DNA from: Diospyros lotus
Lineage: Eukaryota > Streptophyta > Magnoliopsida > Ericales > Ebenaceae
NCBI RefSeq assembly: GCF_014633365.1
Contig: NW_026267104.1
Span: 186,001 to 250,000, forward strand
Direction of reading: 5' to 3'
Length of the DNA: 64,000 nt
The first letter of the stretch is position 1. Each line of letters begins with the position of its first letter. Below are positions 9,001 through 47,383 of the stretch, piece by piece. Under the pieces are notes generated by a model. It worked only from the letters and a program-made list of their open reading frames with translations, was not told the DNA's origin and searched no databases. Position numbers and translations under genes: made by a program.

Positions 9001-9246
9001 ATAGATTCGGAATCGTCAAAAACAAATGAGTCAATTTTGAGATATCGTTGATTGAACAAACTTGACTCTTTCTTGTTTCAAGTGTTCTGCTTTGGACCCT
9101 TGGCTAAAACACATGTTTTTAAAACTTCCCAAAAATCGAATTTGAACTTTCTTTAGTGTATTTAATGTATCAAAATATCGTCTTTCACATAGAATCGGTC
9201 AAAACTTCACGAAATCCAAATTTGAACTTTCTTTAGTGTATTTAGT
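1..9246. repeat. Satellite array block 1, ~188-bp monomer
   Basis: About 49 head-to-tail monomers of ~188 bp. Landmarks that recur at 188-bp steps are TTGAGATATCGTTGATTGAA, CTACTATGGACCCATGG, GAACTTTCTTTAGTGTATTT and CGTCTTTCACA. Monomers fall into classes: one has AACTCAAGTTTTCAAAAC and an ATTATTAGGAATCGT end, others have ACACATGTTTTC or AGTCATGTTTTC and CATAGATTCGGAATCG. Higher-order copies are visible: offsets of 1128 bp (965 versus 2093), 752 bp (2845 versus 3597) and 1495 bp (4522 versus 6017). Each monomer is open on the minus strand for 63 codons, from TTG to a TGA that overlaps the next TTG, but this is a by-product of shared descent. The block ends exactly at the TSD of the solo LTR at 9247. 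Its length and homogeneity are typical of a plant centromeric satellite; this role is inferred. Confidence 0.97.
4349..7338. repeat. Higher-order segmental duplication within the satellite
   Basis: The block 4349-5467 (about six monomers) recurs as 5844-6962 at an offset of 1495 bp, which is eight monomers minus nine bases. Shared private variants include the GAATTCTCTAAAGCAAATACG junction near 5071 and 6566, and a shortened ACTTTCTTTAGTGTATCAAA segment near 4660 and 6155. A dimer (6587-6962) is then duplicated again at an offset of 376 bp (6963-7338). The next monomers (5468, 5656) reappear at 7339 and 7527. This is a record of recent unequal exchange or replication slippage in the array. 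Confidence 0.85.
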
Positions 9247-12200
9247 TGTCACGACCCGAAATCTGGTATGTCATGACCGGCACTAATCCCTAGGCCCAGC
9301 GGCCCCAAAATGGACTAGTAAGCCTCTTCTCTAGCTCGATTTGAATAAAACAATATTACTGACAAGATATAGAACATGAATAAAATACCAATTCACCTTC
9401 TAACATAATATCTCAATATTTCATATACAGCAGCTGTACAAAATAAGAATATCTATCACACTGCTGTTAATAATACATACCCGATCCCGTATCTCGGGCC
9501 CTTGGCACAATTATGTGCCAACAAAATAAAGACAAAACATCAGACTCTACAACATGGGTATGTCTCCACAGAGCATCCTATAATACATCCGAAATCAAAA
9601 GAGGGTATGATATCATACCAGAAGATCTGCTGGACCAATAATCAAAAGGAGAATTCCCTGAAAATATTTTTAATAAAACGAGGTGAGTCTTGTGGATTCG
9701 CGAGTATAAGGTATGTCATGCCCACTAGGAGAGTATACAATAAAATGCTAGGATGATCATCATGAGTATAATAACGTAATAACAATATAAACAGTGGAAT
9801 TATAAACCATAAGTTAAATAATTTGAGATTTCAAAGGAAAACATAGTGTAGGAAAAATAGGTGCTTAAAGACAACCCCCATAAGTTGTTCCCTAACCACC
9901 CAAGTCCCCTATACTTTTGTATGAGATGCATGCACTGATTCTGAGGACACACTAGTAGAAACTGGCCTAACGCCTATATACACATGCACACAAGTATATA
10001 TATCGGCACATACATCATCATCACACAATATCATCATAAAGGCCCACGTGATAGCAGTGCTGAAACATACTATCCGTGTCTCTCATGGCCTTGGCATGCC
10101 AAGCCTCACAGTACCATGATCTTTTCCTGCTGTGAGTCACCAGGGAATCTACTAGATAGTCCTCTAATAATAATGCAAATAATACCCTAATTTATGCACA
10201 AGTCATAATCATTTATCATTTCATGTGGTGCCTAAAATACACCATATCATTCAATAATTCACATTCTCAAAACAAGAAATCAATTAGGGTATCTTTCAAT
10301 TTATGTCTCTCCCAGTAGGATGAAAATATTTCATGCAAATTAGAAACATTTAAGAGTATTTTTCTATGATCCGCATATAAAAATCATGTACGAGTTATGC
10401 ATATAAAAATTTATACAAGGTTATAATATTTATGAATAAAACAGTATATACGTGCATAATATAAGGTAATCATAACATATCCTGTCTACTCGCCTGGGAA
10501 ATGATGACTCAAGTCCGAGTCTGGGGAGAAGATCAAACAAAATCCTGAGAATCTGAGCCTACAATAAATAGAATGGGGTGTCACATTTAGGTAACAAGAA
10601 TAACGACGTAAAGAAATTACCGAAAATCCTAACCATTGCCTAACACCCTAAATCGATTATTTGGTACCTTGGCCCGCGCAATATTCAAATCTGGCGTCAT
10701 GGAATTCGTCGAGCTAAGCCATCGACTACGTCATCATGTCTCGCTTTGCTTGCTACGCGTAAGTGTATAGTGGAACTACACACCCACTTATAGGCTGCAA
10801 TATCATAATATATATATATATTTACCCATAAACTAGTTTTCTTTTAATATAGATAATATATTTTTTATCTAAATTCCTCCTTTATCAAAAATACATACAT
10901 ATATATATTTATAACTAAATTGATAAATTTTCTTGAAAACTTAATAATTAATTAATAATTTAATAAATGGTTTAAAAGGAATAAATTGCAATATTCTAGC
11001 CTCAGATAAAAGGAATCCATCAGAAATCAGGATTCGAAATAAACCCACGTCATCATCATAGGCTAGCCTAGAACGCACTCGGGGTCAGTCTTACTCGGCC
11101 TCGGGTCGTCTAATAGGGCTTCGTCCTTAGGACTCCGATCAACAAAATGACTCGCCAATCATATCGCCAATTCTAGGAGACCTAAAGAGAACCCAAATTA
11201 AACTGACATCGATATCCCGAGTAGGACCAACCTAACCAAGTCATCCTAGGTTCCCGGACAAGCGACAAGGGAGAACAAGCCGAGTGGGCCAGCCCAAGGG
11301 CTGCCACAATTGGGTCAGTCATGCCCAACACATTGGGCCATCCTAAAACCCAATCGGGCCCCGCCATCCTAGGCTAAAACCTAACCCGACATGCCCAACC
11401 CCAAAAGCCCTCATTTCCTTTTTCCTTATATTTTATTTATTTTTTTATTTTTATTTCCTTTTATTCTTTTTCCTTTCTTTTCTTTTCTTTCTTTTTCTTT
11501 TCTTTTTTCTTTTCTTTCCAACACACTGCCACCGCCGGCGACCGCCGCCGGCCAGCCAAAAATGGCCGACCAATATACCGATACGAAGCCCTCGCCACGA
11601 ATAACAACATATATTAAAATGAAACCCATCGGACGGTCAGATCTTACTAGATCTGAGATTTAATTTTCGGCCGAAAATAGGGGCGAATCTGGCCATCGCC
11701 GTTCGCCGGTCGCCGGCCATTTTTTCGACGATCAGAAACTACCCCGAGGTGCGCAACACTAAGGAGAGCAACATACCCAAAAATGAGAAAGATCGGACGG
11801 CTAGATCTTCGTAGATCTAGAGTCGAAGTTTCAGCCAAAAAGAGAAAAAAATACTGCCAACGTCGCCGGCCACCGTGGCCGGCGATTTCCAGCGATCCAA
11901 GACCGCCACCCAACCCTCTTAAGCAAACCGACCATCATATCCAAGAATCACAAAAATCCAACGGTTGGATCTTCGTAGATCTAACCTCAAACATTCGGCC
12001 AACAAGCCCCATCGCGCCTCAAGCCTCATTTCACGAAAACAACAAGCAAAACAGAGAGGATGAAGCCAAAACACTTACCTCCTTGTAGATCGGGGGCACT
12101 TTAACGGTGAAAGCGAAGTCGGATCAACGATCGAACGGCCGGATCGCTTGGAATCGAAGAAAATCCGAGAGGAAATCAAGAGAAAATAAAAGAGAGAGAG

Positions 12201-12348
12201 AGAGAGATTTTCTGATTTGGGGGGGGGGGGGGGCTGCCGAGCGCCTCCCCCTTTTCTTTTTATATTTTTGTTTTTTTTTTAATTATTATATATATAATTT
12301 AATTAATTTAATTAATTAAGTTTTTTTTTTTTTTTTTGGATCTTTACA
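9247..12348 (-). mobile_element. Solo LTR, family A (3.1 kb), inserted in the satellite
   Basis: The sequence begins TGTCACGACCC and ends GGATCTTTACA on the plus strand, so it has TG...CA ends. It is flanked by the 5-bp duplication TTAGT (9242-9246 and 12349-12353), which reconstitutes the satellite motif TTTAGTGTATC. Sense is the minus strand: it starts TGTAAAGATCC, then has an AT-rich TATA region (about 12254-12300), a C16 tract, a CT microsatellite and a splice-donor-like AGGAGGTAAGTG (near 12078), and ends GGGTCGTGACA. A second copy starts at 55900 on the plus strand and shares the TATA, poly-C, CT-repeat and GGAGGTAAGTG order. No internal region or second LTR is present, so it is a solo LTR left by LTR-LTR recombination. 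The superfamily is probably Ty3/gypsy, not proven. Short open frames inside are low-complexity. Confidence 0.88.
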
Positions 12349-15300
12349 TTAGTGTATCAAAATATCGTCTTTCACATACATTCGGAATCAATAAAAACAA
12401 ATGAGTCAATTTTGAGATAACTTTGATTGAACAAAGTTGACTCTTTCTTGTTTCAATTGTTCAACTATGGTCCCATGACTAAAACTCAAGTTTTCAAAAC
12501 TTCCTGAAATCCAAATTTGAACTTTCTTTAGTGTATTTAGCGTATCAAAATGTCGTCTTTCACAATTATTAGGAATCGTGAAAAGCAAATAAGTCAATTT
12601 TGAGATATCGTTGATTGAACAAACTTGAATCTTTCTTGTTTCAAGTGTTCTACTATGGACCCTTGGCTAAAACACATGTTTTCAAAACTTCCCAAAAATC
12701 GAATTTCAACTTTCTTTATTGTATTTAGTGCATCAAAATATCGTCTTTCACATACATTCGGAATCGTCAAACACAAATGAGACAATTTTGAGATATCGTT
12801 GATTGAATAAAGTTGAGTCTTTCTTGTTTCAAGTGTTCTACTATGGACCCATGGCTAAAAGTCATGTTTTCAAAACTTCCCAAAAACCAAATTTGAACTT
12901 TCTTTAGTGTATTTAGGGTATCAAAATATCGTCTTTCACATAGGTTCGGAATCGTTAAAATCAAATGAGTCAATTTTGAGATAACTTTGATTGAACAAAG
13001 TTGACTCTTTCTTGTTTCAATTGTTCTACTATGGACCCATGACTAAAACTCAAGTTTTCAAAACTTCCCGAAATCCAAATTTGAACTTTCGTTAGTATAT
13101 TTAGCGTATCAAAATGTCGACTTTCACAATTATTAGGAATCGTGAAAAGCAAATAAGTCAATTTTGAGATATCGTTGATTGAACAAACTTGAATCTTTCT
13201 TGTTTCAAGTGTTCTACTATGGACCCATGGCTAAAACACATGTTTTCAAAACTTCCCAAAAATCGAATTTGAACTTTCTTTAGTGTATTTAGTGTATCAA
13301 AATATCGTTTTTCACATAGATTCGGAATCGTTAAAAACAAATTAGTCAATTTTGAGATAACTTTGATTGAACAAAGTTGACTCTTTCTTGTTTCAATTGT
13401 TCTACTATGGACCCATGGCTAAAACTCAAGTTTTCAAAACATCTCGAAATCCAAATTTGAACTTTCTTTAGTGTATTAAGTGTATCAAAATATCGTCTTT
13501 CACATACATTCGGAATCAATAAAAACAACTGAGTCAATTTTGAGATAACTTTGATTGAACAAAGTTGACTCTTTCTTGTTTCAATTGTTCTACTATGGAC
13601 CCATGACTAAAACTCAAGTTTTCAAAACTTCCCGAAATCCAAATTTGAACTTTCTTTAGTGTATTTAGCGTATCAAAATGTCGTCTTTCACAATTATTAG
13701 GAATCGTCAAAAGCAAATAAGTCAATTTTGAGATATCGTTGATTGAACAAACTTGGATCTTTCTTGTTTCAAGTGTTCTACTGTGGACCCATGGCTAAAA
13801 CACATGTTTTCAAAACTTCCCAAAAATTGAATTTGAACTTTCTTTAGTGTATTTAGTGTATCAAAATAATGTCTTTCACATACATTCGGAATCGTCAAAA
13901 ACAAATGAGACAATTTTGAGATATCGTTGATTGAATAAAGTTGAGTCTTTCTTGTTTCAAGTGTTCTACTATGGACCCATGGCTAAAAGTCATGTTTTCA
14001 AAACTTCCCAAAAACCAAATTTGAACTTTCTTTTGTGTATTTAGTGTATCAAAATATCGTCTTTCACATAGATTCGGAATCGTCAAAAACAAATGAGACA
14101 ATTTTGAGATATCGTTGATTGAATAAAGTTGTGTCTTTCTTGTTTCAAGTGATCTACTATGGACCCATGGCTAAAAGTCATGTTTTCAAAACTTCCAAAA
14201 AACAGAATTTGAGATTTCTTTAGTGTATTTAGTGTATCAAAATATCGTCTTTCACATAGATTCGGAATCGTGAAAAACAAATGAGTCAATTTTGAGAAAA
14301 CTTTGATTGAACAAGGTTGACTCTTTCTTGTTTCAATTGTTCTACTATGGACCCATGACAAAAACTCAAGTTTTCAAAACTTCCCGAAATACAAATTTGA
14401 ACTTTCTTTAGTGTATTTAGTGTATCAAAATATCGTCTTTCACATAGATTCGGAATCGTTAAAATCAAATGAGTCAATTTTGAGATAACTTTGATTGAAC
14501 AAAGTTGACTCTTTCTTGTTTCAAATGTTCTACTATGGACCCATGACTAAAACTCATGTTTTCAAAACTTCCCGAAATCGAAATTTGAACTTTCTTTAGT
14601 GTATTTAGCGTATCAAAATGTCGTCTTTCACAATTATTAGGAATCGTCAAAAGCAAATAAGTCAATTTTGAGATATCGTTGATTGAACAAACTTGACTCT
14701 TTCTTGTTTCAAGTGTTCTACTATGGACCATGGCTAAAACACATGTTTTCAAAACTTCCCAAAAATCGAATTTGAACTTTCTTTAGTGTATTTAGTGTAT
14801 CAAAATATCGTCTTTCACATAGATTCAGAATCGTCAAAAACAAATGAGACAATTTTGAGATATCGTTGATTGAATAAAGTTGAGTCTTTCTTGTTTCAAG
14901 TGTTCTACTATGGACCCATGGCTAAAAGTTATGTCTTCGAAACTTCCCAAAAACTGAATTTGAACTCTCTTTAATGTATTTAGTGTATCAAAATATCGTC
15001 TTTCACATAGATTCGGAATCGTTAAAAACAAATGAGTCAATTTTGAGATAACTTTGATTGAACAAAGTTGACTCTTTCTTGTTTCAATTGTTCTACTATG
15101 GACCCATGACTAGAACTCAAGTTTTAAAAACTTCCCGAAATCAAATTTGAACTTTATTTTATGTATTTAGCGTATCCAAATGTCGTCTTTCACAATTATT
15201 AGGAATCGTAAAAAGCAAATAAGTTAATTTTGAGATATCGTTGATTGAACAAACTTGACTCTTTCTTGTTTCAAGTGTTCTACTATGGACCCATGCCTGA

Positions 15301-15954
15301 AACTCAAGTTTTCAAAACTTTCGAAAATCCAAATTTGAACTTTCCTTAGTGTATTTAGCGTATCAAAATGTCGTCTTCCACAATTATTAGGAATTCTCTA
15401 AAGCAAATACGTCAATTTTGAGATATCATTGATTGAACAAAGTTGACTCTTTCTTGTTTCAATTGTTCTACTTTGGACCCATGACTAAAACTCATGTTTC
15501 CAAAACTTCCCGAAATCCAAATTTGAACTGCCTTTAGTGGATTTATCGTATCAAAATGTCATCTTTCCCAGTTATTAGGAATCGACAAAAGCAAATAAGT
15601 TAATTTTGAGATATCGTTGATTGAACAAACTTGAATCTTTCTTGTTTCAAGTGTTCTACTATGGACCCATGCCTGAAACTCAAGTTTTCAAAACTTTCCG
15701 AAATCCAAATTTGAACTTTCTTTAGTGTATTTAGTGTATCAAAATGTCGTCTTTCAAAATTATTAGGAATCGGCAAAAGCAAATAAGTCAATTTTCAGAT
15801 ATCGTTGATTGAACAAACTTGGATCTTTCTTGTTTCAAGTGTTCTACTATGAACCCATGGCTAAAACACATGTTTTCAAAACTTCCCAAAAATCGAATTT
15901 GAACTTTCTTTAGTGTATTTAGTGTATCAAAATATCGTCTTTCACATAGATGAA
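12349..15954. repeat. Satellite array block 2, ~188-bp monomer
   Basis: This is a continuation of the same satellite, about 19 monomers. A three-monomer order is clear here: an AACTCAAGTTTTC monomer, then ACACATGTTTTC, then AGTCATGTTTTC (12406, 12594 and 12767 onwards, repeated at 13534, 13722 and 13895), giving a ~564-bp higher-order unit. Towards the right it changes to the variant with CCATGCCTGAAACTCAAG (near 15290 and 15670), also seen in blocks 1 and 3. It breaks off within a monomer at about 15950, where Athila pol sequence begins. Confidence 0.96.
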
Positions 15955-17808
15955 AATGTCAGCATACCAAGGGACAACAGATGATGCACGAATAACATTC
16001 ACTTCAAACAGTTGCTTATCAGGGAAATTGTCATGAATTGGTTCATCAAATTGTGTGAGATCTTGACTTGGAATCCTTGACAAATGGTCAGCCACCACAT
16101 TTTCTACTCCCTTCTTGTCTCTGATTTCAATGTTGAACTCTTGCAGGAGTAAGATCCATCGGAGCAGACGGGGTTTTGCATCTTTCTTTGTGAACAAATA
16201 CTTCAGAGCAGCGTGATCAGTAAAAATGATCACTAGTGAACCTACGAGGTAAGATCGGAACTTGTCCAGGGCAAAGACAACTGCTAGTAACTCTTTCTCT
16301 GTAGTGGTGTAATTCTTTTGTGCCTCATTAAGAGTTTTGCTAGCATAGTATATCACATGAGGTTTCTTATCCTTCCTCTGCCCTAACACAGCTCCTACCG
16401 CGTAATCACTAGCATCGCACATAAGTTCAAACGGGAGGGACCAATCAGGGGACTGAATGATAGGTGCTGAAATGAGTGCATCTTTCAATTTATCAAAAGC
16501 ATTTTGACAGGCAGGACTCCATTCAAACGGAACATCTTGAGACAACAAATGGCACAAGGGTCTTGTTATGGTGCTAAAGGAAGCAATGAATCTCCTATAA
16601 AACCCTGCATGTCCCAAAAAACTTCTGATGTCTTTCACATTCCTAGGGATGGGGAGTTTTTGAATTGTTTCAATTTTTGATCTGTCTACCTCCATCCCCC
16701 TAGATGAAACGATGTGCCCCAAGACTATGCCCTGTTTCACCATGAAGTGACATTTTTCCCAATTGAGTATCAGATTTGTTTCCTCACATCTTGCTAAAAC
16801 CTTTTTCAAATTCTCCAAACAGGCCTCAAAGTTACTTCCATAAACAGAAAAGTCATCCATAAATACTTCAACAATCTGCTCAACCATTTCACTGAAAATG
16901 CTCATCATACACCTTTGAAAGGTGGCTGGAGCATTGCATAACCCAAATGGCATGCGCCTGTATGCAAATGTCCCAAATGGACATGTGAAAGTTGTCTTCT
17001 CTTGATCTTCTAGTGCAATTTCTATCTGATTGTACCCTGAGTACCCATCTAAGAAACAATAGTAGGCTTGGCCTGCTATTCTCTCCAGAACTTGATCCAA
17101 GAAAGGCAAAGGAAAATGATCTTTCCTTGTCACAGAATTGAGCTTTCTATAATCAATGCACATACGCCATCCTGTCTGGATGCGTGTGGGAATCAGTTCA
17201 TTGTTCTCATTTTTTACAACAGTGACTCCAGACTTTTTGGGTACTACTTGTGTTGGACTTACCCACTTAGAATCAGAGATTGGGTAAATTATTCCAGCAT
17301 CCAATAGCTTCAGCACTTCTTTTCTGACAACTTCTTTCATGTTGGGATTTAATCTCCTTTGCATTTGCCTAACTGGTTTTGCTCCTTCTTCCAAGAATAT
17401 CTTATGAGTACAGATCAAAGGGCTAATACCTTGCAAATCTGAAATGGTCCATCCTAATGACTTCCTGTGTGCTTTTAGAACTTTTATCAGTTGTTGCTCT
17501 TGCTGAGGTGTCAAACTTGAAGAGATCACTACTGGGAATGCTTCCCCTTCTCCTAGAAAGACATACTTCAAATCACTGGGCAATGGCTTTCTCTCAGGCG
17601 TGGACTGATGGCTATCAGGAGCCATGAGCTTACTGTCCAAGTTCCTTAATGGCTCTAAACCAGGCATCCATGTAGGCTTCTCACTTTCTTTGCTTATGAC
17701 TTCCATTTCTTTTATTTCTTCAAAATCTTGACTTCCTTCTTTGGGTCTTCTCATGAACTCTTCAAAATAGTCATTGGTCAGTGTTTGGATCAAGTCTACC
17801 TCCTCCAC
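15955..17808 (-). pseudogene. pol: Athila pol, 5' part only (truncated copy)
   Basis: This is the second, partial copy of the pol ORF. It encodes the linker, the whole reverse transcriptase and RNase H, and ends in the linker before integrase, after a Val-Val-Pro-Trp-Tyr-Ala-Asp-Ile motif. It then runs into satellite DNA, which adds about ten meaningless codons before a stop at 15919. Compared with the full copy at 24130-27267 it lacks one Lys codon near residue 392 (3-bp deletion near 16630). It also differs at two positions I could see: Lys for Gln in the RNase H region and Lys for Glu after it. The frame is otherwise open. Without integrase it cannot support transposition. Confidence 0.92.
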
Positions 17809-17902
17809 TTCACTCTCAGTGTCCTGATGTTTGGCTACCCGAATTTATCAGGAGATGCTTCTTCTTTCTCTTTTTTTTTTCTTTTTGTTTTTGCCTCAAT
17901 CT

Positions 17903-17919
17903 CCCCGGCAACGGCGCCA
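17903..17919 (-). other. Primer-binding site of the left Athila unit
   Basis: On the minus strand this reads TGGCGCCGTTGCCGGGG, the tRNA-Asp-complementary PBS characteristic of Athila/Tat elements. It lies a few bases inside the end of the LTR, fixing element orientation as minus. The identical site of the full unit is at 27362-27378. Confidence 0.9.
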
Positions 17920-17924
17920 AAATT

Positions 17925-20028
17925 TGACTGCACTCTCACCCTGCATTTAAAACACAAAACAAAACACAATAAAAATTTTATATTTTTTTTTATTTATTTA
18001 GGCGAGAGGTTTATACTCGTCAGTGTACGAGTGCAGTTGTAGTCCAAATTTAAATTTATACTTTCTGGATAAGTCCAGGTCGTCCACTGAGAGATTTATT
18101 TATGGCAAAAGAAAAAGAATGTCACACACACACACACGCATTTAGAGGATGGATAACATGATTTTTTATGATTTTTTTTAGATAACAAATACTAGAAAAT
18201 AAAACAAGACAGAAGTTGAAATAAATACTGAACGTGAGAATATGAAATTGGATAGTACTTGAGTTAAGACAATTTCAGTGCCAACCCGTTGATTCCCAAA
18301 TTTAAGCATAAAAGATTAGCAACATTAATTTAATTTCAGATATGAGGGTTTGTTATTAAATGCAATTAAAGATAATGATAGCTCTAGTTTCAGCAATCCC
18401 CATACATGATATGCGGGATTCTAAGTTAAGAAACTACCATAAATTCAATTACAATTAATACACAAAACAACTAAATTAATCATCCGGGTTTGGGTATGAT
18501 AGCGTTTCCAGTTCTAGTAACTCTCATGCATGACATGAAAGCTCTAAGTTAGGCTTACGCTCCAATCCAAACCTAGTGATTTTTCAATAATCAAAACACA
18601 CTCATATTGAAGTTTAAACTAATGTTACTCATTTAAAGCGTAACTTTATTTGGGAATCATTAGCGTTGGACACTGTCCTTGCCTTAACCCAAGATTAGAT
18701 TTAGCTACTCATCTCCATTAAATTAATTGACAGGAATTTAAATGACATAATTTAAATAACAGAATTTAAATGACAGAATTTAAATGACAGGAATTAAAAT
18801 AGAAGAAACTAACCGGCCATTTAGGCGGTAGATAATTAAAATACAAGAATTAAAATTGCAAGAATTTAAAGGCATAAACTAACCGTCCATTTAGGCGGTG
18901 AACAATTAAAATACAAGAATAAAAATTACAGAAATTTAAAGGCATAAACTAACCGTCCATTTAGGCGGTGAATAATAAAGTAATAATAAATGACATAAGA
19001 ATTTAAAAGAAGAAAGAAATGAAGGTAGTAAGATCACAAGAGAAAATACTAAAGAAAATGAGAGAGAACAAAAGCAATTCTCAAAGAGAGAATTCTAAGG
19101 AAATAACTAAACTTTGATTCAAGAATAATAATCACACTTACAAATGCAATCAAGTGAGCTATTTATAGGCCACAAGATGCAATACAAACCACACAATTTC
19201 AATTATTCAATTAGACATAATTATATCTAATGGGCACTCACACACTTAAAGTTAAATGGATTTTAGCTATAATACACACCTAATATTAAATGGATTTTAG
19301 CTAAAATACATACCTAATAAAGCACTCATAAAGTTAAATGGATTTTAGCTATAATATCCACCTAATAGTTAAATGGATTTTAGCTAAAAAACATACCTAA
19401 TAAAGCTCTCACATAAAAAATAAAAATAGATTTCTATAAATTGGTTTTTTAATCTTTATTAGGATTAAAAATAATCCTTGGGCCTTCTCCAAATAATATC
19501 TTCCATGGGTTGCTCAAATTGGGCCTTAATTCTTCATGGGCTTGAATTCTTCATGGATTTGAATTTTTCATGGGCTTGATTTCTTCATGGATTTGATGTC
19601 TTCATGGACTTTAAATCTTCATGGGTTGATTTCTTCATGGGTTTGATTTCTTCATGGATTTGATGTCTTCATGGACTTTAAATCTTCATGGGCTTGAATT
19701 CTTCATGCCTAAAAAAAAAATAATTTAATGTTATTAATAAATTATATATTATATATATGTATTACACATGGCACACATATATATATATTAGATTATATTA
19801 TATATATATATTACATGCATGCATATAATGATGTATATGTATTATATATAATTTTATATATTATTATTATTATTATTAAATTTTACTTTAAAATTTCATT
19901 TCATTCATTTTTCAATTTAAACTTGCATATAACCATAAAATATATATTAATATCTAATTTAAACCATTTTTAAGATCAAAAGAAGGGTATAATTATAACA
20001 AAATTTTTACAAAATTAACCACTAATCA
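17925..20028 (-). mobile_element. Athila LTR (left copy, 3' LTR of the full unit)
   Basis: Plus-strand edges are TGACTGCACTC and CACTAATCA, giving TG...CA ends and a length of ~2.1 kb. It is followed on the right by the C6 tract that is the polypurine tract in sense. The left edge is uncertain by about four bases (17925 or 17929). Inside are three AACTAACCG(T/G)CCATTTAGGCGG repeats (18810-18970), an AAATGGATTTTAGCTA repeat group (19255-19400), and many TTCTTCATGGGCTTGA-like repeats (19530-19710). It is nearly identical to 27384-29488, so the two units are recent or homogenised. Confidence 0.85.
19159..19167 (-). promoter_or_regulatory. TATA box in Athila LTR
   Basis: On the minus strand the sequence is CCTATAAATAGCTC, a strong plant TATA box. 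It would place transcription start ~30 bp further left, splitting the LTR into ~0.9 kb U3 and ~1.2 kb R/U5. The right LTR has the same box at 28619-28627. Confidence 0.6.
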
Positions 20029-20040
20029 TACCCCCCAACT
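20029..20040 (-). other. Polypurine tract next to the Athila LTR
   Basis: In sense this reads AGTTGGGGGGTA immediately before the TGATTAGTGG start of the LTR, the expected position for plus-strand priming. The right partial unit has the same tract at 29489-29500. Two more copies of the same motif occur internally at about 21523 and 23806. Confidence 0.75.
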
Positions 20041-21522
20041 TAAACATTGCTAGTCCCTTAGCAATCAGACTATACACATGCCAAGTTTTAATAACTGTAT
20101 GAATGTAAAAATTTCAAATTTGAAATCGAAATGCATAAAATTGAATAAATAATTTAGCATTCTAAATCAGATTTTTGGTTAAAGATCATACAATCTCAGG
20201 AATAGCAATTAGGATGACCAACACACAGACTTACTCTCTTGAAGTTTTGACTCAAATCTCACTATGGATTTTCCCTCCAATAAAAAGGATTTCTCAGGTG
20301 TACACACAAGGGGGTGCACCGTTATAAGAGTAAATGCAGAACAAGTTCAAAACTCAGTGTCATCCCAAATACAAGGAACGTATTTTCATGAAAGAACAAG
20401 GAAATTGATATAGCTTCATGATTGGAATAATGCTCTAGATGAGTAACTTCTGAATTTAAACATGATTCCCTACTCCAAACTCGAATTCTGAGATCACATG
20501 ATTTATAGCATAAAATGGGACCAGACTGGGTTGTAATGGGGCTATGAGGTTAATACGGGTTGTCAAAGAAAAGGTAGATTATGGAAAGTGTGTGTGCCGG
20601 GATTTTTTTTTTTTTTTTTTTTTAAGCAGTTATGCTGAATAGCTAAGAGAAGTTGCCCCATTTTTTTTCACTTTTTTTTTTTCTTTCTTTTTTTTTCTCT
20701 CTTTTTTTTTTTTTTTCTCTCTTTTTCTCTTTTTCTTTCTCTTTAAATATGAAAATAGATAGACAGATTAATTCCCAAAAACACACCAGGTTGGTCAAAA
20801 TTCATATTGTTTTGGGTAAAACGAAGGTAGCGAAGAAAGTTGTACTACAAATGGCTCAAAAGGGCTACCAAAGGAGGTTAATTTAAAGAAAGAAAAAGGT
20901 TTAATAAGCTCAAAATGAAAGAAATTGATCCCCCTATCATGCTTCTACAAAACGATGATACTCAGTCATCTAATTCAGAGTTTGAAACCAGTCAAACTTA
21001 TCCGTTATCATACTAGACATTCAATGCGAATTGATGTTTTGAAGCCATTGAAAAGATAAGATAAACAATAAAGCATATTTAGAGTAAGTGTTATTTCACT
21101 CAGAATTAACGGTTATTAGGCTCAAACACTCACTTGGGTAATAGTCTCCACTTTTGTTGAGAGATCATACAGTGTACTAATCAGCTAATTACTGTTACCT
21201 TTGACTTTATGACCGATAACTAATTTTTAAATTTTGAATCCCCGATGAATGCAAATTACTTATTCTAATGCATATACGTTTTCAAATAAGAAATCAATGC
21301 ATTCATGTTTTGTATTGCAAACTTAACCGGCTATCAGTGCATAACTTCAAGCTTTAGGAATAGCATTATTTAAAACACATAATTTTTTTTTTTTATTATT
21401 ATTATTTTTTATTTTTTTAATAAGAGCAGATAAAGATAATCAAAATCACACAATACTACAAACTAGCAATAGCAAACTCACAGTTAAATATGAACCAGAT
21501 AATTCATAATTAGACCTTACAC
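20041..21522. other. Athila 3' internal region, no gene seen
   Basis: This AT-rich stretch between the cargo genes and the PPT holds long poly-T and CT-rich runs (about 20599-20745 and 21390-21420). I find no coding sequence on either strand. The segment 20041-20193 is the part also present at the right edge of the concatemer (29501-29653). Confidence 0.6.
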
Positions 21523-21545: not shown

Positions 21546-21697
21546 AAACTAGGGTTGTTAGGAATACCTGTAACTCCACAAGTCCATAGATTTGCTGTGA
21601 ACTGCTAAAACTTAAACAACAAATGAGCATACCATATATATATATATTTATATTTTCACACCAAAATAAAAATTCCATGCAAGTCATAAGATAAAAA

Positions 21698-21772
21698 AAA
21701 TGCGTCTCAAGAGTACAAAAAGTACTCCTTACTCAGCCATCTTATCAAAGACTTTGCCTAACAACATTCCAC

Positions 21773-21814
<42 letters not shown>

Positions 21815-21902
21815 ACACAACCAAGAAAAATCCTGCAAGTTGTTCAATACTTAAAATGCGTCTCAAGAGTACAAAAAGTACTCCTTACTCAGCCATCTTA
21901 AT
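21698..21902 (-). repeat. Two degenerate fragments of the cysteine-rich gene
   Basis: AATGCGTCTCAAGAGTACAA followed by AAAGTACTCCTTACTCAGCC occurs at about 21698-21745 and again at 21855-21902. Both resemble 22889-22945, inside the cysteine-rich ORF, where the two halves are separated by ~18 additional bases. The copies carry the same internal deletion and an in-frame stop, so they share one origin and were then duplicated around a T30 tract (21776-21810). They are probably remnants of a 3' copy of that gene. Confidence 0.7.
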
Positions 21903-21914
21903 AAAGAGCATTTC

Positions 21915-22574
21915 TCACAGTGATAAATCTAAATTAATCGGACCCCTTTGGCGCTTGTTACTAATTGCCTTAGACCAGTCTATCCAAGGCTCATAAGGAT
22001 CGTGCTGTGGAACATAAGTGTGTAATTTTTCTAGCAGCTCATCAATGGTGGATGCGGAAATGAGAATCTTTCTTGCTGAAAGAGAAATGAACTTTTGATC
22101 CACAGCCTGATCAAGAAAAGAGAGCAACCCATCAAAAAAATGGTTAACATTTAAAAGTCCAATGGGTTTGGTATGGAGATTACTCTTGGCCCAGGAGATT
22201 ATACAAAACATTTCTTCAAGTGTTCCAAAACCTCCTGGTAAAGCAATGAAGGCGTCTGACTGATAAATCTTACAAGCCATACGCTCAGACATAGAAGTCG
22301 TTTCTATAAGTTGACCGCGTGTAATCCTAGAAATATGTGGTTCAGCTAAAGGGAATGGCATTACACCTACCACAGATGAATTTCCAAGATGTACAGCTTG
22401 TGAAACATAACCATTCAATCCACGACTTCCCCCTCCATATACCAAATTAATTTTTTTCTCTCCTAATTTTTTACCTAGTTCGCTTGCTGCAAGTGCGTAA
22501 CAAATATCACTCCCAAGTTGAGAGCCACAAAGTACACATATGGTTTTGATTCGACGAACTAACTGACCTTCCAT
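21915..22574 (-). CDS. LOG-like: LOG-family cytokinin riboside 5'-monophosphate phosphoribohydrolase carried by the retrotransposon
   Basis: The product is 219 aa, starts at a true ATG and has no stops or introns. LOG enzymes release active cytokinin bases from their riboside 5'-monophosphates. The Rossmann-like fold is evident: ICVLCGS at 12-18, VYGGGSRGLNG at 45-55, then the catalytic block with Arg98 and the LOG signature PGGFGTLEE at 113-121, followed by KPIGLLNV. Length is normal for plant LOGs. It is divergent around the substrate loop: the usual Met-His-Gln-Arg-Lys reads Met-Ser-Glu-Arg-Met (95-99), and the usual Gly-Leu-Met-Gly reads GLNG. It has a basic C-terminal tail. Plant LOG genes normally contain introns, so an intronless copy inside an LTR element suggests capture through RNA. 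It lies in sense with pol, 167 bp after the cysteine-rich ORF. Activity is not proven. Confidence 0.9.
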   Translation of the reverse strand: MEGQLVRRIKTICVLCGSQLGSDICYALAASELGKKLGEKKINLVYGGGSRGLNGYVSQAVHLGNSSVVGVMPFPLAEPHISRITRGQLIETTSMSERMACKIYQSDAFIALPGGFGTLEEMFCIISWAKSNLHTKPIGLLNVNHFFDGLLSFLDQAVDQKFISLSARKILISASTIDELLEKLHTYVPQHDPYEPWIDWSKAISNKRQRGPINLDLSL

Positions 22575-23230: not shown

Positions 23231-23800
23231 ATCATTCTGTGGGAGAGATGGATAGTATTTGTGAATTTTTGAGAGATAAAAATCCTTTTTTTTTTTTTTT
23301 TTTTAAATAACTATACTGAAAAGAAAGTAAAGAACTATAAACTTTGCAAAAGGGATGAGAGTACCTGATCGGAGGATAACACAAAGGAGAGAAGATTGAG
23401 CTCAAGAAGGGTGACTTGCCTCATACAGATATGGAGTCTCTTATAGAGCAACGGTCATCACTATTCTACACTCGAGTCGAGACATGTCACAATTACAGGG
23501 TCAGGCTTGGCGTCTCTTTTTCAACGCTTGGTGCCTCATTTTTCAACATTTGGCAGTGTGCCTTATCCTTTATAGGGCAGTGTGATTGCACTGCCCAAGA
23601 AAAGATAGCTACCACCAGCGTCAATTCTGTCTCTCTCAATTCAAATTTTTTTTTTTTTTTTTTTTTAATTTTTTTTTTTTTTTTTGGTAAATTTTTTTTT
23701 TTTTTTTTTTTAGTAGGGGCCCAATAAAATCATATATATCACACAAGACAATATTATCAAGTCAATCAAAATTATTTCACTAATAAATCAATAAGTACAC
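23231..23800. other. Spacer between PPT-like tract and the cysteine-rich gene
   Basis: The stretch holds a T22 run (23287-23304) and two longer poly-T blocks (23647-23711). On the minus strand CTTTACTTTCTTTTCAG (near 23320) resembles a 3' splice site ahead of the cysteine-rich ORF. No gene seen. Confidence 0.5.
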
Positions 23801-23822
23801 CTTACCCCCCAACTTAAATTGC
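23801..23822 (-). other. Third PPT-like tract, between pol and cargo genes
   Basis: Plus-strand CCTTACCCCCCAACTTAAAT matches the tract at 21523 and the core of the PPT at 20029. Athila/Tat elements are known to have PPT-like tracts downstream of pol. Here it bounds the cargo genes on their 5' side. Confidence 0.55.
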
Positions 23823-27267: not shown

Positions 27268-27361
27268 TTCACTCTCAGTGTCCTGATGTTTGGCTACCCG
27301 AATTTATCAGGAGATGCTTCTTCTTTCTCTTTTTTTTTTCTTTTTGTTTTTGCCTCAATCT
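27268..27361 (-). other. Shortened Athila leader between PBS and pol
   Basis: Only ~94 bp, A-rich in sense, separate the PBS from the pol frame. A normal Athila element has several kilobases of leader, gag and protease here. The same short leader is in the left unit (17809-17902), so the deletion predates the tandem arrangement. Confidence 0.75.
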
Positions 27362-27383
27362 CCCCGGCAACGGCGCCAAAATT

Positions 27384-29488
27384 TGACTGCACTCTCACCC
27401 TGCATTTAAAACACAAAACAAAACACAATAAAAATTTTATATTTTTTTTTATTTATTTAGGCGAGAGGTTTATACTCGTCAGTGTACGAGTGCAGTTGTA
27501 GTCCAAATTTAAATTTATACTTTCTGGATAAGTCCAGGTCGTCCACTGAGAGATTTATTTATGGCAAAAGAAAAAGAATGTCACACACACACACACGCAT
27601 TTAGAGGATGGATAACATGATTTTTTATGATTTTTTTTAGATAACAAATACTAGAAAATAAAACAAGACAGAAGTTGAAATAAATACTGAACGTGAGAAT
27701 ATGAAATTGGATAGTACTTGAGTTAAGACAATTTCAGTGCCAACCCGTTGATTCCCAAATTTAAGCATAAAAGATTAGCAACATTAATTTAATTTCAGAT
27801 ATGAGGGTTTGTTATTAAATGCAATTAAAGATAATGATAGCTCTAGTTTCAGCAATCCCCATACATGATATGCGGGATTCTAAGTTAAGAAACTACCATA
27901 AATTCAATTACAATTAATACACAAAACAACTAAATTAATCATCCGGGTTTGGGTATGATAGCGTTTCCAGTTCTAGTAACTCTCATGCATGACATGAAAG
28001 CTCTAAGTTAGGCTTACGCTCCAATCCAAACCTAGTGATTTTTCAATAATCAAAACACACTCATATTGAAGTTTAAACTAATGTTACTCATTTAAAGCGT
28101 AACTTTATTTGGGAATCATTAGCGTTGGACACTGTCCTTGCCTTAACCCAAGATTAGATTTAGCTACTCATCTCCATTAAATTAATTGACAGGAATTTAA
28201 ATGACATAATTTAAATAACAGAATTTAAATGACAGAATTTAAATGACAGGAATTAAAATAGAAGAAACTAACCGGCCATTTAGGCGGTAGATAATTAAAA
28301 TACAAGAATTAAAATTGCAAGAATTTAAAGGCATAAACTAACCGTCCATTTAGGCGGTGAACAATTAAAATACAAGAATAAAAATTACAGAAATTTAAAG
28401 GCATAAACTAACCGTCCATTTAGGCGGTGAATAATAAAGTAATAATAAATGACATAAGAATTTAAAAGAAGAAAGAAATGAAGGTAGTAAGATCACAAGA
28501 GAAAATACTAAAGAAAATGAGAGAGAACAAAAGCAATTCTCAAAGAGAGAATTCTAAGGAAATAACTAAACTTTGATTCAAGAATAATAATCACACTTAC
28601 AAATGCAATCAAGTGAGCTATTTATAGGCCACAAGATGCAATACAAACCACACAATTTCAATTATTCAATTAGACATAATTATATCTAATGGGCACTCAC
28701 ACACTTAAAGTTAAATGGATTTTAGCTATAATACACACCTAATATTAAATGGATTTTAGCTAAAATACATACCTAATAAAGCACTCATAAAGTTAAATGG
28801 ATTTTAGCTATAATATCCACCTAATAGTTAAATGGATTTTAGCTAAAAAACATACCTAATAAAGCTCTCACATAAAAAATAAAAATAGATTTCTATAAAT
28901 TGGTTTTTTAATCTTTATTAGGATTAAAAATAATCCTTGGGCCTTCTCCAAATAATATCTTCCATGGGTTGCTCAAATTGGGCCTTAATTCTTCATGGGC
29001 TTGAATTCTTCATGGATTTGAATTTTTCATGGGCTTGATTTCTTCATGGATTTGATGTCTTCATGGACTTTAAATCTTCATGGGCTTGATTTCTTCATGG
29101 GTTTGATTTCTTCATGGATTTGATGTCTTCATGGACTTTAAATCTTCATGGGCTTGAATTCTTCATGCCTAAAAAAAAAATAATTTAATGTTATTAATAA
29201 ATTATATATTATATATATGTATTACACATGGCACACATATATATATATTAGATTATATTATATATATATATTACATGCATGCATATAATGATGTATATGT
29301 ATTATATATAATTTTATATATTATTATTATTATTATTAAATTTTACTTTAAAATTTCATTTCATTCATTTTTCAATTTAAACTTGCATATAACCATAAAA
29401 TATATATTAATATCTAATTTAAACCATTTTTAAGATCAAAAGAAGGGTATAATTATAACAAAATTTTTACAAAATTAACCACTAATCA
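27384..29488 (-). mobile_element. Athila LTR (right copy, 5' LTR of the full unit)
   Basis: Same edges and internal repeats as 17925-20028 and almost identical in sequence; one extra C near 29090 is the clearest difference. The PBS follows at 27362-27378. On its other side it does not meet target DNA. The PPT and ~150 bp of internal sequence of a further, truncated unit follow (29489-29653), then satellite. Confidence 0.88.
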
Positions 29489-29653
29489 TACCCCCCAACT
29501 TAAACATTGCTAGTCCCTTAGCAATCAGACTATACACATGCCAAGTTTTAATAACTGTATGAATGTAAAAATTTCAAATTTGAAATCGAAATGCATAAAA
29601 TTGAATAAATAATTTAGCATTCTAAATCAGATTTTTGGTTAAAGATCATACAA

Positions 29654-32600
29654 AGTTGACTCTTTCTTGTTTCAATTGTTCTACTATGGACCCATGACAA
29701 AAACTCAAGTTTTCAAAACTTCCCGAAATCAAAATTTGCACTTTCTTTAGTGTATTTAGTGTATCAAAATATCGTCTTTCACATAGATTCGGAATCGTTA
29801 AAAACAAATGAGTCAATTTTGAGAAAACTTTGATTGAACAAAGTTGACTCTTTCTTGTTTCAATTGTTCTACTATGGACCCATGACAAAAACTCAAGTTT
29901 TCAAAACTTCCCGAAATCAAAATTTGCACTTTCTTTAGTGTATTTAGTGTATCAAAATATCGTCTGTCACATACAATCGGAATCGTTAAAAACAAGTGAG
30001 TCAATTTTGAGGTAACATTGATTGAACAAAGTTGACTCTTTCTTGTTTCAATTGTTCTACTATGGAACCATGACTAAAACTCAAGTTTTCAAAACTTCCT
30101 GAAATCCAAATTTGAACTTTCTTTAGTGTATTTAGCGTATCAAAATATCGTCTTTCACAATTATTAGGAATCGTCAAAAGCAAATAAGTCAATTTTGAGA
30201 TATCGTTGATTGAACAAACTTGAATCTTTCTTGTTTCAAGTGTTCTACTATGGACCCTTGGCTAAAACACATGTTTTCAAAACTTCCCAAAAATCGAATT
30301 TGAACTTTCTTTAGTGTATTTAGTGTATCAAAATATCGTCTTTCACATAGATTCGGAATCGTTAAAATCAAATGAGTCAATTTTGAGATAACTTTGATTG
30401 AACAAAGTGGACTCTTTCTTGTTTCAATTGTTCTACTATGGACCCATGACTAAAACTCATGTTTTCAAAACTTCTCTTAATCCAAATTTGAACTTTCTTT
30501 TGTGTATTTAGTGTATCAAAATGTCGTCTTTAACAATTATTAGGAATCGTCAAAAGCAAATAAGTCAATTTTGAGATATCGTTGATTGAACAAACTTGAC
30601 TCTTTCTTGTTTCAAGTGTTCTACTATGGACCCATGGCTAAAACACATGTTTTCAAAACTTCCCAAAAATCGAATTTGAACTTTCTTTAGTGTATTTAGT
30701 TTATCAAAATATCGTCTTTCACACAGATTCGGAATCGTCAAAAACAAATGAGACAATTTTGAGATATCGTTGATTGAATAAAGTTGAGTCTTTCTTGTTT
30801 CAAGTGTTCTACTATGGACCCATGGCTAAAAGTCATGTTTTCAAAACTTCCCAAAAACCAAATTTGAACTTTCTTTAGTGTATTTAGTGTATCAAGATAT
30901 CGTCTTTCACATAGATTCGGAATCGTTAAAATCAACTGAGTCAATTTTGAGATAACTTTGATTGAACAAAGTTGACTCTTTCTTGTTTCAATTGTTCTAC
31001 TATGGACCCATGACTAAAACTCATGTTTTCAAAACTTTTCGAAATCCAAATTTGAACTTTCTTTTGTGTATTTAGTGTATCAAAATGTCGTCTTTCACAA
31101 TTATTAGGAATCGTCAAAAGCAAATAAGTCAATTTTGAGATATCGTTGATTGAACAAACTTGACTCTTTCTTGTTTCAAGTGTTCTACTATGGACCCATG
31201 GCTAAAACACATGTTTTCAAAACTTCCCAAAAATCGAATTTGAACTTTCTTTAGTGTATTTAGTTTATCAAAATAACGTCTTTCACATAGATTCGGAATC
31301 GTCAAAAACAAATGAGACAATTTTGAGATATCGTTGATTGAATAAAGTTGAGTCTTTCTTGTTTCAAGTGTTCTACTATGGACCCATGGCTAAAAGTCAT
31401 GTTTTCAAAACTTCCCAAAAACCAAATTTGAACTTTCTTTAGTGTATTTAGGGTATCAAAATATCGTCTTTCACATAGGTTCGGAATCGTTAAAAACAAA
31501 TGAGTCAATTTTGAGATAACTTTGATTGTACAAAGTTGACTCTTTCTTGTTTCAATTGTTCTACTATGGACCCATGACTAAAACTCAAGTTTTAAAAACT
31601 TCCCGAAATCCAAATTTGAACTTTCTTTTATGTATTTAGCGTATCCAAATGTCGTCTTTCACAATTATTAGGAATCGTCAAAAGCAAATAAGTTAATTTT
31701 GAGATATCGTTGATTGAACAAACTTGACTCTTTCTTGTTTCAAGTGTTCTAGTATGGACCCATGCCTGAAACTCAAGTTTTCAAAACTTTCCGAAATCCA
31801 AATTTGAACATTCTTTAGTGTATTTAGCGTATCAAAATGTCGTCTTCCACAATTATTAGGAATTCTCTAAAGCAAATACGTCAATTTTGAGATATCGTTG
31901 ATTGAACAAAGTTGACTCTTTCTTGTTTCAAGTGTTCTACTATGGACCCATGGCTAAAAGTAATGTTTTCAAAACTTCCAAAAAATAGAATTTGAGATTT
32001 CTTTAGTGTATTTAGTTTATCAAATATCGTCTTTCACATAGATTCGGAATCCTTAAAAACAAATGAGTCAATTTTGAGATAACTTTGATTGAACAAAGTT
32101 GACTCTTTCTTGTTTCAATTGTTCTACTTTGGACCCATGACTAAAACTCATGTTTCCAAAACTTCCCGAAATCCAAATTTGAACTGCCTTTAGTGGATTT
32201 ATCGTATCAAAATGTCATCTTTCCCAGTTATTAGTAATCGTCAAAAGCAAATAACTTAATTTTGAGATATCGTTGATTGAACAAAGTTGACTCTTTCTTG
32301 TTTCAATTGTTCTACTATGGACCCATTACTAAAACTCAAGTTTTCAAAACTTCCCGAAATCCAAATTTGAACTTTCGTTAGTATATTTAGCGTATCAAAA
32401 TGTCGTCTTTCACAATTATTAGGAATCGTGAAAAGCAAATAAGTCAATTTTGAGATATCGTTGATTGAACAAACTTGAATCTTTCTTGTTTCAAGTGTTC
32501 TACTATGGACCCATGGCTAAAACACATGTTTTCAAAACTTCCCAAAAATCGAAATTGAACTTTCTTTAGTGTATTTAGTGTATCAAAATATCGTCTTTCA

Positions 32601-35600
32601 CATAGATTCGGAATCGTTAAAAACAAATGAATCAATTTTGAGATAACTTTGATTGAACAAAGTTGACTCTTTCTTGTTTCAATTGTTCTACTATGGACCC
32701 ATTGCTAAAACTCAAGTTTTCAAAACTTCTCGAAATCCAAATTTGAACTTTCTTTAGTGTATTTAGTGTATCAAAATATCGTCTTTCACATACATTCGGA
32801 ATCAATAAAAACAAATGAGTCAATTTTGAGATAACTTTGATTGAACAAAGTTGACTCTTTCCTGTTTCAATTGTTCTACTATGGACCCATGACTAAAACT
32901 CAAGTTTTGAAAACTTCCCGAAATCCAAATTTGAACTTTCTTTAGTGTATTTAGCGTATCAAAATGTCGTCTTTCACAATTATTAGGAATCGTGAAAAGC
33001 AAATAAGTCAATTTTGAGATATCGTTGATTGAACAAACTTGGATCTTTCTTGTTTCAAGTGTTCTACTATGGACCTATGGCTAAAACACATGTTTTCAAA
33101 GTTCCGAAAAATCGAATTTGAACTTTCTTTAGTGTATTTAGTGTATCAAAATATCGTCTTTCACATAGAATCGGTCAAAACTTCCGAAAAACCAAATTTG
33201 AACTTTCTTTAGTGTATTTAGGGTATCAAAATATCGTCTTTCACATAGGTTCGGAATCGTTAAAATCAAATGAGTCAATTTTGAGATAACTTTGATTGAA
33301 CAAAGTTGACTTTTTCTTGTTTCAATTGTACTACTATGGACCCATGACTAAAACTCAAGTTTTCAAAACTTCCCGAAATCAAAATTTGAACTTTCTTTAG
33401 TGTATTTAGTGTATCAAAATGTCGTCTTTCACAATTATTAGGAATCGTCAAAAGCAAATAAGTCAATTTTGAGATATCGTTGATTGAACAAACTTGACTC
33501 TTTCTTGTTTCAAGTGTTCTACTATGGACCCTTGGCTAAAACACATGTTTTCAAAACTTCCCAAAAATTGAATTTGAACTTTCTTTAGTGTATTTAGTGT
33601 ATCAAAATATCGTCTTTCACATTGATTCGGAATCGTCAAAAACAGATGAGTCAATTTTGAGATATCGTTGATTGAATAAAGTTGAGTCTTTCTTGTTTCA
33701 AGTGTTCTACTATGGACCCATGGCTAAAAGTCATGTTTTCAAAACTTCCCAAAAACCAAATTCGAACTTTCTTTAGTGTATTTAGGGTATCAAAATATCG
33801 TCTTTCACATAGATTCGGAATCGTTAAAATCAAATGAGTCAATTTTGAGATAACTTTGATTGAACAAAGTTGACTATTTCTTGTTTCAATTGTTCTACTA
33901 TGGACCCATGACTAAAACTCATGTTTTCAAAACTTCCCGAAATCCAAATTTGAACTTTCTTTTGTGTATTTCGTGTATCAAAATATCGTGTTTCACATAG
34001 ATTCGGAATCGTCAAAAACAAATGAGACGATTTTGAGATATCGTTGATTTAATAAAGTTGAGTCTTTCTTGTTTCAAGTGTTCTACTATGGACCCATGGC
34101 TAAAAGTCATGTTTTCGAAACTTCCCAAAAACTGAATTTGGACTTTTTTTAGTGTATTTAGTGTATCAAAATATCGTCTTTCACATAGATTCGGAATTGT
34201 TAAAAACAAATGAGTCAATTTTGAGATAACTTTGATTGAACAAAGTTTACTCTTTCTTGTTTCAATTGTTCTACTATGGACCCATGACTAAAACTCAAGT
34301 TTTCAAAACATCCCGAAATCCAAATTTGAACTTCCTTTTATGTATTTAGCGTATCCAAATGTCGTCTTTCACAATTATTAGGAATCGTCAAAAGAAAATA
34401 AGTCAATTTTGAGATATCGTTGATTGAACAAACTTTACTCTTTCTTGTTTGAATTGTTCTACTATGGACCCATGACTAAAACTCAAGTTTTCAAAACTTC
34501 CCGAAAACCAAATTTGAACTTTCTTTAGTGTATTTAGCGTATCAGAATGTCGTCTTCCACAATTATTAGGAATTGTCTAAAGCAAATACGTCAATTTTGA
34601 GATATCGTTGATTGAACAAAGTTGACTCTTTCTTGTTTCAAGTGTTCTACTATGGACCCATGGCTAAAACACATGTTTTCAAAACTTCCAAAAAATCGAA
34701 TTTGAACTTTCTTTAGTGTATTTAGTGTAACAAAATATCGTCTTTAAAATTGATTCGGAATCTTAAAAAACAAATGAGTTAATTTTGAGATATCGATGAT
34801 TGAATAAAGTTGAGACGTTCTTGTTTCAAGTGTTCTACTACGGACCCATGGCTAAAAGACATGTTTTCGAAACTTCCCAAAAATCCAATTTGAACTTTCT
34901 TTAGTGTATTTAGTGTATCAAAATATCGTCTTTCACATAGATTTGGAATCGTTAAAATCAAATGAGTAAATTTTGAGATAAGTTTGATTGAACAAAGTTG
35001 ACTTTTTCTTGTTTCAATTGTTCTGCTATGGACCCTTGACTAAAACTCAAGTTTTCAAAACTTCCCGAAATCCAAATTTGAACTTTCTTTAGTGTATTTA
35101 GGGTATCAAAATATTGTCTTTCACATAGATTCGGAATCGTCAAAACCAAATGAGACAATTTTGAGATATCGTTGATTGAATAAAGTTGAGTCTTTCTTGT
35201 TTCAAGTGTTCTACTATGGACCCATGGCTAAAAGTCATCTTTTCGAAACTTCGCAAAAACTGAATTTGAACTTTCTTTACTGTAATTAGTGTATCAAAAT
35301 ATCGTCTTTCACATACATTCGGAATCGTTAAAAACAAATGCGTCAATTTTGACCAAACTTTGATTGAACAAAGTTGACTCTTTGTTGTTTCAATTGTTCT
35401 ACTATGGACCCATGGCGAAAACTCAAGTTTTCAAAACTTCCCGAAAGCCAAATTTGAACTTTCTTTAGTGTATTTAGCATATAAAAATGTCGTCTTTCAC
35501 AATTACGAGGAATCTTCAAAAGCAAATAAGTCAATTTTGAGATATCGTTGATTGAACAAACTTGACTCTTTCTTGTTTCAAGTGTTCTACTATGGACCCT

Positions 35601-40701: not shown

Positions 40702-41361
40702 CAAGTTTCATTAATCCTTATCCATTTTGGATTGCAAGTTCCATTAATCCTTATCCATTTTGGATTGCAAGTTCCATTAATCCTAATCCATTTTGGATTG
40801 CAAGTTCTATTAATCCTCATCCATTTTGGATTGCAAGTTTCAGTAATCCTAATCCATTTTGGATTGCAAGTTCTATTAATCCTCATCCATTTTGGATTGC
40901 AAGTTCCAGTAATCCTTATCCATTTTGGATTGCAAGTTCCATTAATCCTTATCCATTTTGGGTTGCAAGTTTCAGTAATCCTAATCCATTTTGGATTGCA
41001 AGTTCTATTAATCCTCATCCATTTTGGATTGCAAGTTCCAGTAATCCTTATCCATTTTGGATTGCAAGTTCCAATAATCCTTATCCATTTTGGATTGCAA
41101 GTTCTATAAATCCTTATCCTTTTTGGATTGCAAGTTTTATTAATCCTCATCCATTTTGGATTGCAAGTTCCAGTAATCCTTATCCATTTTGGATTGCAAG
41201 TTCTATTAATCCTCATCCATTTTGGATTGCAAGTTCCAGTAATCCTTATCCATTTTGGATTGCAAGTTCTATTAATCCTTATCCATTTTGGATTGCAAGT
41301 TCTATTAATCCTTATCCATTTTGGATTGCAAGTTCTATTAATCCTTATCCATTTTGGATTG
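40702..41361. repeat. 33-bp minisatellite in LTR-B, 20 units
   Basis: Twenty units of 33 bp with CAAGTTC, TTAATCCTTATCC and ATTTTGGATTG. Because 33 is a multiple of three, both strands give long open frames with an 11-residue repeat. These are artefacts. The second LTR-B copy has 17 units (61268-61828). Confidence 0.95.
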
Positions 41362-41385
41362 CAAGTTCTATTACTCTAAGTTCTA

Positions 41386-47374: not shown

Positions 47375-47383
47375 TATAAATAG
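47375..47383 (+). promoter_or_regulatory. TATA box in LARD 5' LTR
   Basis: TTTGATATAAATAGAGGCC is a strong TATA context. Start of transcription is expected ~30 bp downstream. The 3' LTR has the same box at 54172-54180. Confidence 0.6.

Follow-up and report, generated by a model that had tools for sequence, protein, structure and literature searches.

How does a gene of the cytokinin-activating LOG (LONELY GUY) family come to lie in a plant retrotransposon, is it kept there, and what might it do for its carrier? These questions are raised by a locus of Diospyros lotus (assembly GCF_014633365.1, contig NW_026267104.1, positions 186,001 to 250,000 of the forward strand), and all coordinates below are those of this stretch of 64,000 nucleotides, the window. 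The answer that we favour, and hold to be probable, is that the carrier is a young, gag-less, non-autonomous Athila element whose family long ago captured a spliced plant LOG beside a flexivirus-type ORF. The element is known here from one copy, which is probably a member of a LOG-bearing family.

Architecture and lineage of the element

The retrotransposon is flanked by arrays of a 188-bp satellite (12349-15948 and 29650-33174, with about 38 monomers in these two) and reads on the minus strand in the order LTR, PBS, RT-RH-INT, NABP-like ORF, LOG, LTR, PBS and truncated pol. Its features, in this order, are:

27384..29488, minus strand: 5' LTR of the LOG-bearing unit, with an alternative start at 29652, at the satellite junction; bounds inferred from the positions of PPT-like tract and PBS
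27361..27378, minus strand: PBS-like 18-mer, recognised by sequence; one such 18-mer lies behind each of the two LTRs
27267 to 24130, minus strand: pol with RT, RNase H and integrase (Pfam), 1045 aa from a GTG; the first in-frame ATG is codon 19
23805..23817, minus strand: PPT-like tract just after pol, recognised by sequence
23302 to 22745, minus strand: NABP-like open frame of 186 codons, with PF05515 at residues 43-124 and a weaker PF01623
22574 to 21915, minus strand: LOG-derived ORF, 219 aa, intronless, resting on its ATG start, Pfam/TIGRFAM matches and structure model
within 21815..21907, minus strand: decayed NABP piece, copy 1 (core about 50 bases long; source 22954-22892); 0/500 shuffles reach its score
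within 21658..21751, minus strand: decayed NABP piece, copy 2 (source 22954-22892); 0/500 shuffles reach its score
21522..21534, minus strand: PPT-like tract after LOG, recognised by sequence
20031..20043, minus strand: PPT-like tract next to the inferred start of the 3' LTR, recognised by sequence
17925..20028, minus strand: 3' LTR of the LOG-bearing unit, common to the next unit, with an alternative start at 20192
15955..17919, minus strand: second unit with PBS and pol start, truncated at the satellite, recognised from the direct repeat

The two units are joined through a direct repeat (29653-25411 and 20193-15955) in which 8 of 4243 alignment columns differ, namely by four substitutions, one 1-base indel and one 3-base indel, with a single-base indel as the only difference in the LTR part. 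We rejected this 4.2-kb repeat as a plain LTR pair because it includes the PBS and the start of pol, and the element is thus a tandem of two units that have one LTR in common, and satellite cuts it off at one end at least. As no purine tract adjoins 20193, the LTR start was placed at the PPT-like tract. Since the LTR parts are almost without differences, the LOG-bearing copy arose very recently, unless the LTR copies were homogenised. The PBS-like 18-mer, which we take to be the complement of the tRNA-Asp 3' end, lies 58 bases from the open pol frame (27303) and 93 bases from the pol GTG; Athila elements have a PBS for a non-Met tRNA, of the tRNA-Asp type. No gag or protease domain was found in the element with Pfam, so that this copy is not autonomous and cannot move alone. 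Rfam gave 0 matches, and viral-contig scans with pol, the LOG ORF and the NABP-like ORF, by a method that detects close relatives only, returned no relatives of any of the three.

The pol frame shows the Ty3/gypsy order RT-RH-INT and carries FMDD and integrase motifs. Neither a second RNase H, which marks Tat/Ogre, nor a chromodomain, which marks chromoviruses (both as described in PMC6317226), was listed by Pfam up to E 10, in a scan with filters that remove most matches above 0.1; with these two groups set aside, Athila is the best fit to the sequence. The element resembles Athila, of the OTA clade of Ty3/gypsy, in the order of its pol domains, in lacking both a chromodomain and a second RNase H, in its location in a satellite array and in its extra sense ORFs between pol and the 3' LTR, a region that a review describes as the usual site of extra ORFs (PMC7264820). 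It differs from Athila in that no env-like ORF was recognised and that gag and protease were not found. The preliminary description was correct in placing LOG after pol, in the same sense and ahead of an LTR: RT-RH-INT lies on the same minus strand, and an LTR copy follows beyond LOG.

Origin and probable constraint of the LOG-derived frame

The earlier reading of an ATG-started open frame of 219 codons was borne out, as the frame contains no internal stop; the plus-strand translation is stop-rich. Matches above cut-off were obtained with PF03641 (Pfam, E 4.9e-33) and with TIGR00730 (E 2.4e-43), and the protein carries the motif PGGFGTLEE, which conforms to PGGxGTxxE, together with R98 within the loop M95-S-E-R-M99, exactly as previously read; this motif and the conserved Arg are presumably the catalytic residues of LOG phosphoribohydrolases. 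The equivalog model NF058542, which may not suit LOGs of plants, gave 90.4 bits against a cut-off of 300. An AlphaFold2 model, whose input included 45 bacterial relatives, reached a pLDDT of 90.3, and its top solved structures in Foldseek were the Arabidopsis LOGs 2a33 and 1ydh, followed by type-I bacterial LOGs. With a TM of 0.95 by target length against 2a33, the model has the LOG fold. Identity amounts to 47% with AtLOG3 and 43% with AtLOG8; between these two Arabidopsis proteins it is 70%.

In a tree of 48 proteins, in which the bootstrap had not settled, the frame clusters with AtLOG3 and AtLOG8 (support 98/91) and is drawn outside this pair on a branch flagged as long (1.51, against 0.06 and 0.4 for the Arabidopsis LOGs). 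A position beside AtLOG3 has a log-likelihood 1.69 higher than the drawn tree (p-AU 0.525) and one beside AtLOG8 a p-AU of 0.303; since neither arrangement is rejected, the tree fixes no donor LOG type. Given the grouping with two Arabidopsis LOGs, the lack of introns and the position inside the element, we regard it as supported that an Athila-type element captured a plant LOG. To this extent the captured LOG transcript of the preliminary description stands, although not as a novelty. LOGL4-like ORFs reportedly occurred already in two Athila-like elements, among extra ORFs of the 3' region (Steinbauerova et al. 2011, Genetica 139:1543).

A kindred capture is documented in PMC9289625, a screen of 121 angiosperm genomes in which a YgdH domain, linked to LONELY GUY, was found in gypsy consensuses of Citrus sinensis and C. 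clementina after a filter of at least 5 consensus sequences per species, and in a Populus trichocarpa gypsy element without this n5 filter, in line with that paper's citation of Steinbauerova 2011. Like those of Citrus and Populus, our element is a gypsy LTR element of a plant with a LOG-family domain; it differs from them, as they are described there, in its flexivirus-like ORF and in that gag was not found, neither of which the description mentions (PMC9289625). A looser parallel is the Phalaenopsis gypsy element with an AlkB RNA demethylase, likewise an LTR element with an enzyme plausibly directed against host control, although with a different enzyme, a length of 25 kbp and an assayed activity (PMC9289625). 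Neumann 2019 tallied extra ORFs only from 250 codons upwards (PMC6317226), and both the LOG and the NABP-like ORF would therefore have been missed in that tally as described. LOG in gypsy elements is thus already known, and it is the long LOG branch and the neighbouring NABP-like ORF that reach beyond the earlier reports.

The preliminary description also held that the frame had been kept open. The conservation yardstick consisted of 82 relatives, a skewed set with 80 bacterial rows among the matches listed, picked by two sequence patterns and with internal stops in 8 of the 80. At the columns conserved in at least 90% of this set, the LOG ORF keeps 39/52, against 49/52 for AtLOG3 and 47/52 for AtLOG8. 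It agrees with AtLOG3 at 39/49 conserved columns and at 50/136 others (Fisher p 1.9e-7), which indicates that its changes avoid conserved sites, although the contrast shrinks to 0.80 versus 0.61 kept if the LOG ancestor was 40% different from AtLOG3 at the other columns; part of the divergence could predate the capture and give the same bias. When neutral change was simulated from the LOG ORF (1000 runs, indels not counted), the frame remained stop-free in 0.2% of the runs at 53% identity and in 10% at 82% identity. We read these data as a frame that was probably constrained through most of its history while its active-site shell shifted. Long-term maintenance thus gains from the conserved-column bias and from the 0.2% figure, and it is unproved, given the 10% that stay open at 82% identity and the possible divergence before capture.

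The same observations bear on whether LOG and the NABP-like piece are instead accidental passengers of one sublineage, drifting and intact-looking only because the insertion is young. The near-identical LTRs leave little time for decay, gag was not found, the decayed duplicates of the NABP piece show a region that rearranges, 13 of the 52 columns at the 90% conservation level have changed (K99 and E124 among them), and modest change after capture would leave a free frame open often enough, at the 10% just given. We nevertheless consider such a history unlikely, as a free frame would hardly survive at 53% identity, as the changes avoid conserved columns, if less markedly with a pre-diverged ancestor, and as the LOG-family domain of Citrus passed its filter in each species (PMC9289625).

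The LOG-derived protein keeps only 22 of the 26 columns conserved at 98% or more, against 26/26 in both AtLOG3 and AtLOG8; the altered near-invariant positions are M54N, K99M, M102K and E124C, and other changes, at columns conserved at 90% or more, include E80H and H96S. Altered activity, raised earlier from the substrate loop, has thus become likelier than originally held, since near-invariant residues beyond the loop have changed as well, and these changes could also mean decay. Because four of the 26 near-invariant positions (M54, K99, M102 and E124) are affected, cytokinin activity appears doubtful, and weak production of free cytokinin is possible, although we lean against it. Other proteins of the LOG fold, such as the Moco carrier protein, bind without LOG activity. 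It is nearly an even question whether the LOG-derived protein is likewise a nucleotide-binding protein of the element and not a cytokinin enzyme, a reading compatible with the capture history that we favour. The four changes at columns kept in both Arabidopsis LOGs, the low NF058542 score and the retention of the fold and the PGGFGT loop would all suit such a protein, while R98, which is kept along with the glutamates in the PGG motif, would point the other way; the NF058542 model may simply not fit plant LOGs, and the yardstick relatives were chosen by pattern, 80 of them among the matches listed.

The NABP-like neighbour and the 3' accessory region

Between pol and LOG, the NABP-like frame matches PF05515 (Viral_NABP) with 33.3 bits against a gathering cut-off of 23, and PF01623 (Carla_C4) with 19.5 bits, just below the cut-off of 20.9; a DsrD match at E 0.96 is noise. 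Such proteins of flexiviruses are cysteine-rich, and several are described as RNA silencing suppressors and pathogenicity determinants, that of Chrysanthemum virus B being a weak suppressor as well as a transcription factor that induces hyperplasia (PMC12172455). The frame resembles the NABP/CRP of carlaviruses, allexiviruses and mandariviruses in its PF05515 match and in a basic stretch followed by a four-cysteine cluster, and it is unlike them in its shorter finger spacing and in being carried by a retrotransposon. Specifically, its cluster reads C-x2-C-x4-C-x3-C, whereas that of the carlavirus JaVC, the one description used for comparison, has a basic signal followed by C-X2-C-X12-C-X4-C (PMC8839810). 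The frame lacks an early ATG, the first in-frame one lying at 23185 and giving 147 aa, which counts against the explanation that we favour. The listings of a literature search yielded no retrotransposon with an NABP-like ORF.

The resemblance might be convergent, a basic and cysteine-rich segment unrelated to the flexivirus proteins. The sub-threshold PF01623 match and the deviating finger would fit this view, as would the structure model of the ORF alone, which is unusable at a pLDDT of 36.8, and a PDB sequence search with 0 matches; PHROGs likewise contained no match. We consider convergence quite improbable, however, since PF05515 scores 10 bits above its cut-off, two related families match one stretch of the ORF, the basic stretch precedes the cysteines as in the carlavirus description, and none of eight controls (seven shuffles and one reversal) matched any family up to E 1.

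The two decayed NABP pieces, both downstream of LOG, are 81.9% identical over 94 columns and hence not independent of each other. The stretch around the PPT-like tract after LOG is, moreover, 68% identical over 157 columns, partly of low complexity, to that around the tract after pol. The 3' region has thus expanded through duplication, with LOG sitting between NABP-derived sequences, and this speaks against LOG having inserted alone into this copy; with decayed NABP pieces downstream of LOG, both ORFs look like components of a single accessory region. This arrangement bears directly on the idea of a host LOG retrocopy that was inserted by chance into this element alone and does not belong to its family, for which a 36-base A-run (minus strand, 21810-21775), 104 bases past the LOG stop, might speak. 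As the poly-A tail of a LOG mRNA this run was rejected, since similar A/T runs recur throughout the region and one decayed NABP piece intervenes between the LOG stop and the A-run, with another beyond it. Together with a LOG branch far longer than expected of a recent copy and the earlier report of LOG in gypsy elements (PMC9289625), this leaves a chance retrocopy very unlikely. Spliced expression of the accessory ORFs was likewise considered and found no support beyond chance: acceptor-like sites precede both, but such sites are common: a stretch of 3.9 kb has 41 YAG sites with no AG close by, and 9 of these show at least 10 pyrimidines out of 13. An imperfect palindrome of 44 bp (23564-23607) lies between pol and the NABP-like ORF.

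Based on what the sequences suggest, we think it most likely that the two ORFs make up an accessory region directed at the host, the one acting on nucleic acid and silencing and the other on nucleotides or cytokinin. In the history that we favour, a spliced plant LOG transcript entered the family's 3' accessory region long ago, a region that also holds the flexivirus-type cysteine-rich nucleic-acid-binding ORF, and other copies probably carry LOG as well. Both proteins would be made from LTR-driven transcripts; the NABP-like protein might act on nucleic acid and weaken RNA silencing, the LOG-derived protein might bind nucleotide, either as a weak maker of free cytokinin or as a binding protein, and together they might render the cell more favourable to transposition, with gag and protease supplied in trans by autonomous relatives. 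A more specific version, in which a virus-type silencing suppressor or nuclear regulator and a LOG-derived hormone enzyme form a two-gene cassette of host manipulation, kept for less-silenced and division-prone cells, is in our view rather unlikely.

LOG capture by gypsy elements is reported in PMC9289625, where it is left unexplained as far as described. That LOG has a neighbour akin to silencing suppressors of viruses, among them one with an effect on cell proliferation, suggests that the two serve a shared purpose, and makes it a testable question whether plant retrotransposons employ borrowed genes to counter silencing and to promote cell division. Should the NABP-like ORF be related to the viral proteins by descent, it would also represent an exchange of genes between a lineage of RNA viruses and an LTR element.

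Other repeats in the window

In total, the 188-bp satellite comprises about 105 monomers in four arrays over 1-9198, 12349-15948 and 29650-36522, interrupted at 9199-12348 by other DNA, in which two ORFs searched with Pfam gave no match. The junctions between element and satellite lie at 15948-15955 and 29650-29653, and the left one cuts pol.

Two further repeat pairs lie to the right of the satellite. A direct pair of 2416 bp (46630-49045 and 53427-55842), 99.7% identical and separated by 4.4 kb in which no frame of at least 100 codons is listed, resembles a young non-autonomous LTR element; for two ORFs searched within the repeat, no Pfam match exceeded the cut-off. A second pair (39948-41962 and 60508-62424) is about 95% identical, contains 33-bp tandem arrays of 20.4 and 17.4 units, and may be an outer LTR pair with the 2416-bp-repeat element nested inside.
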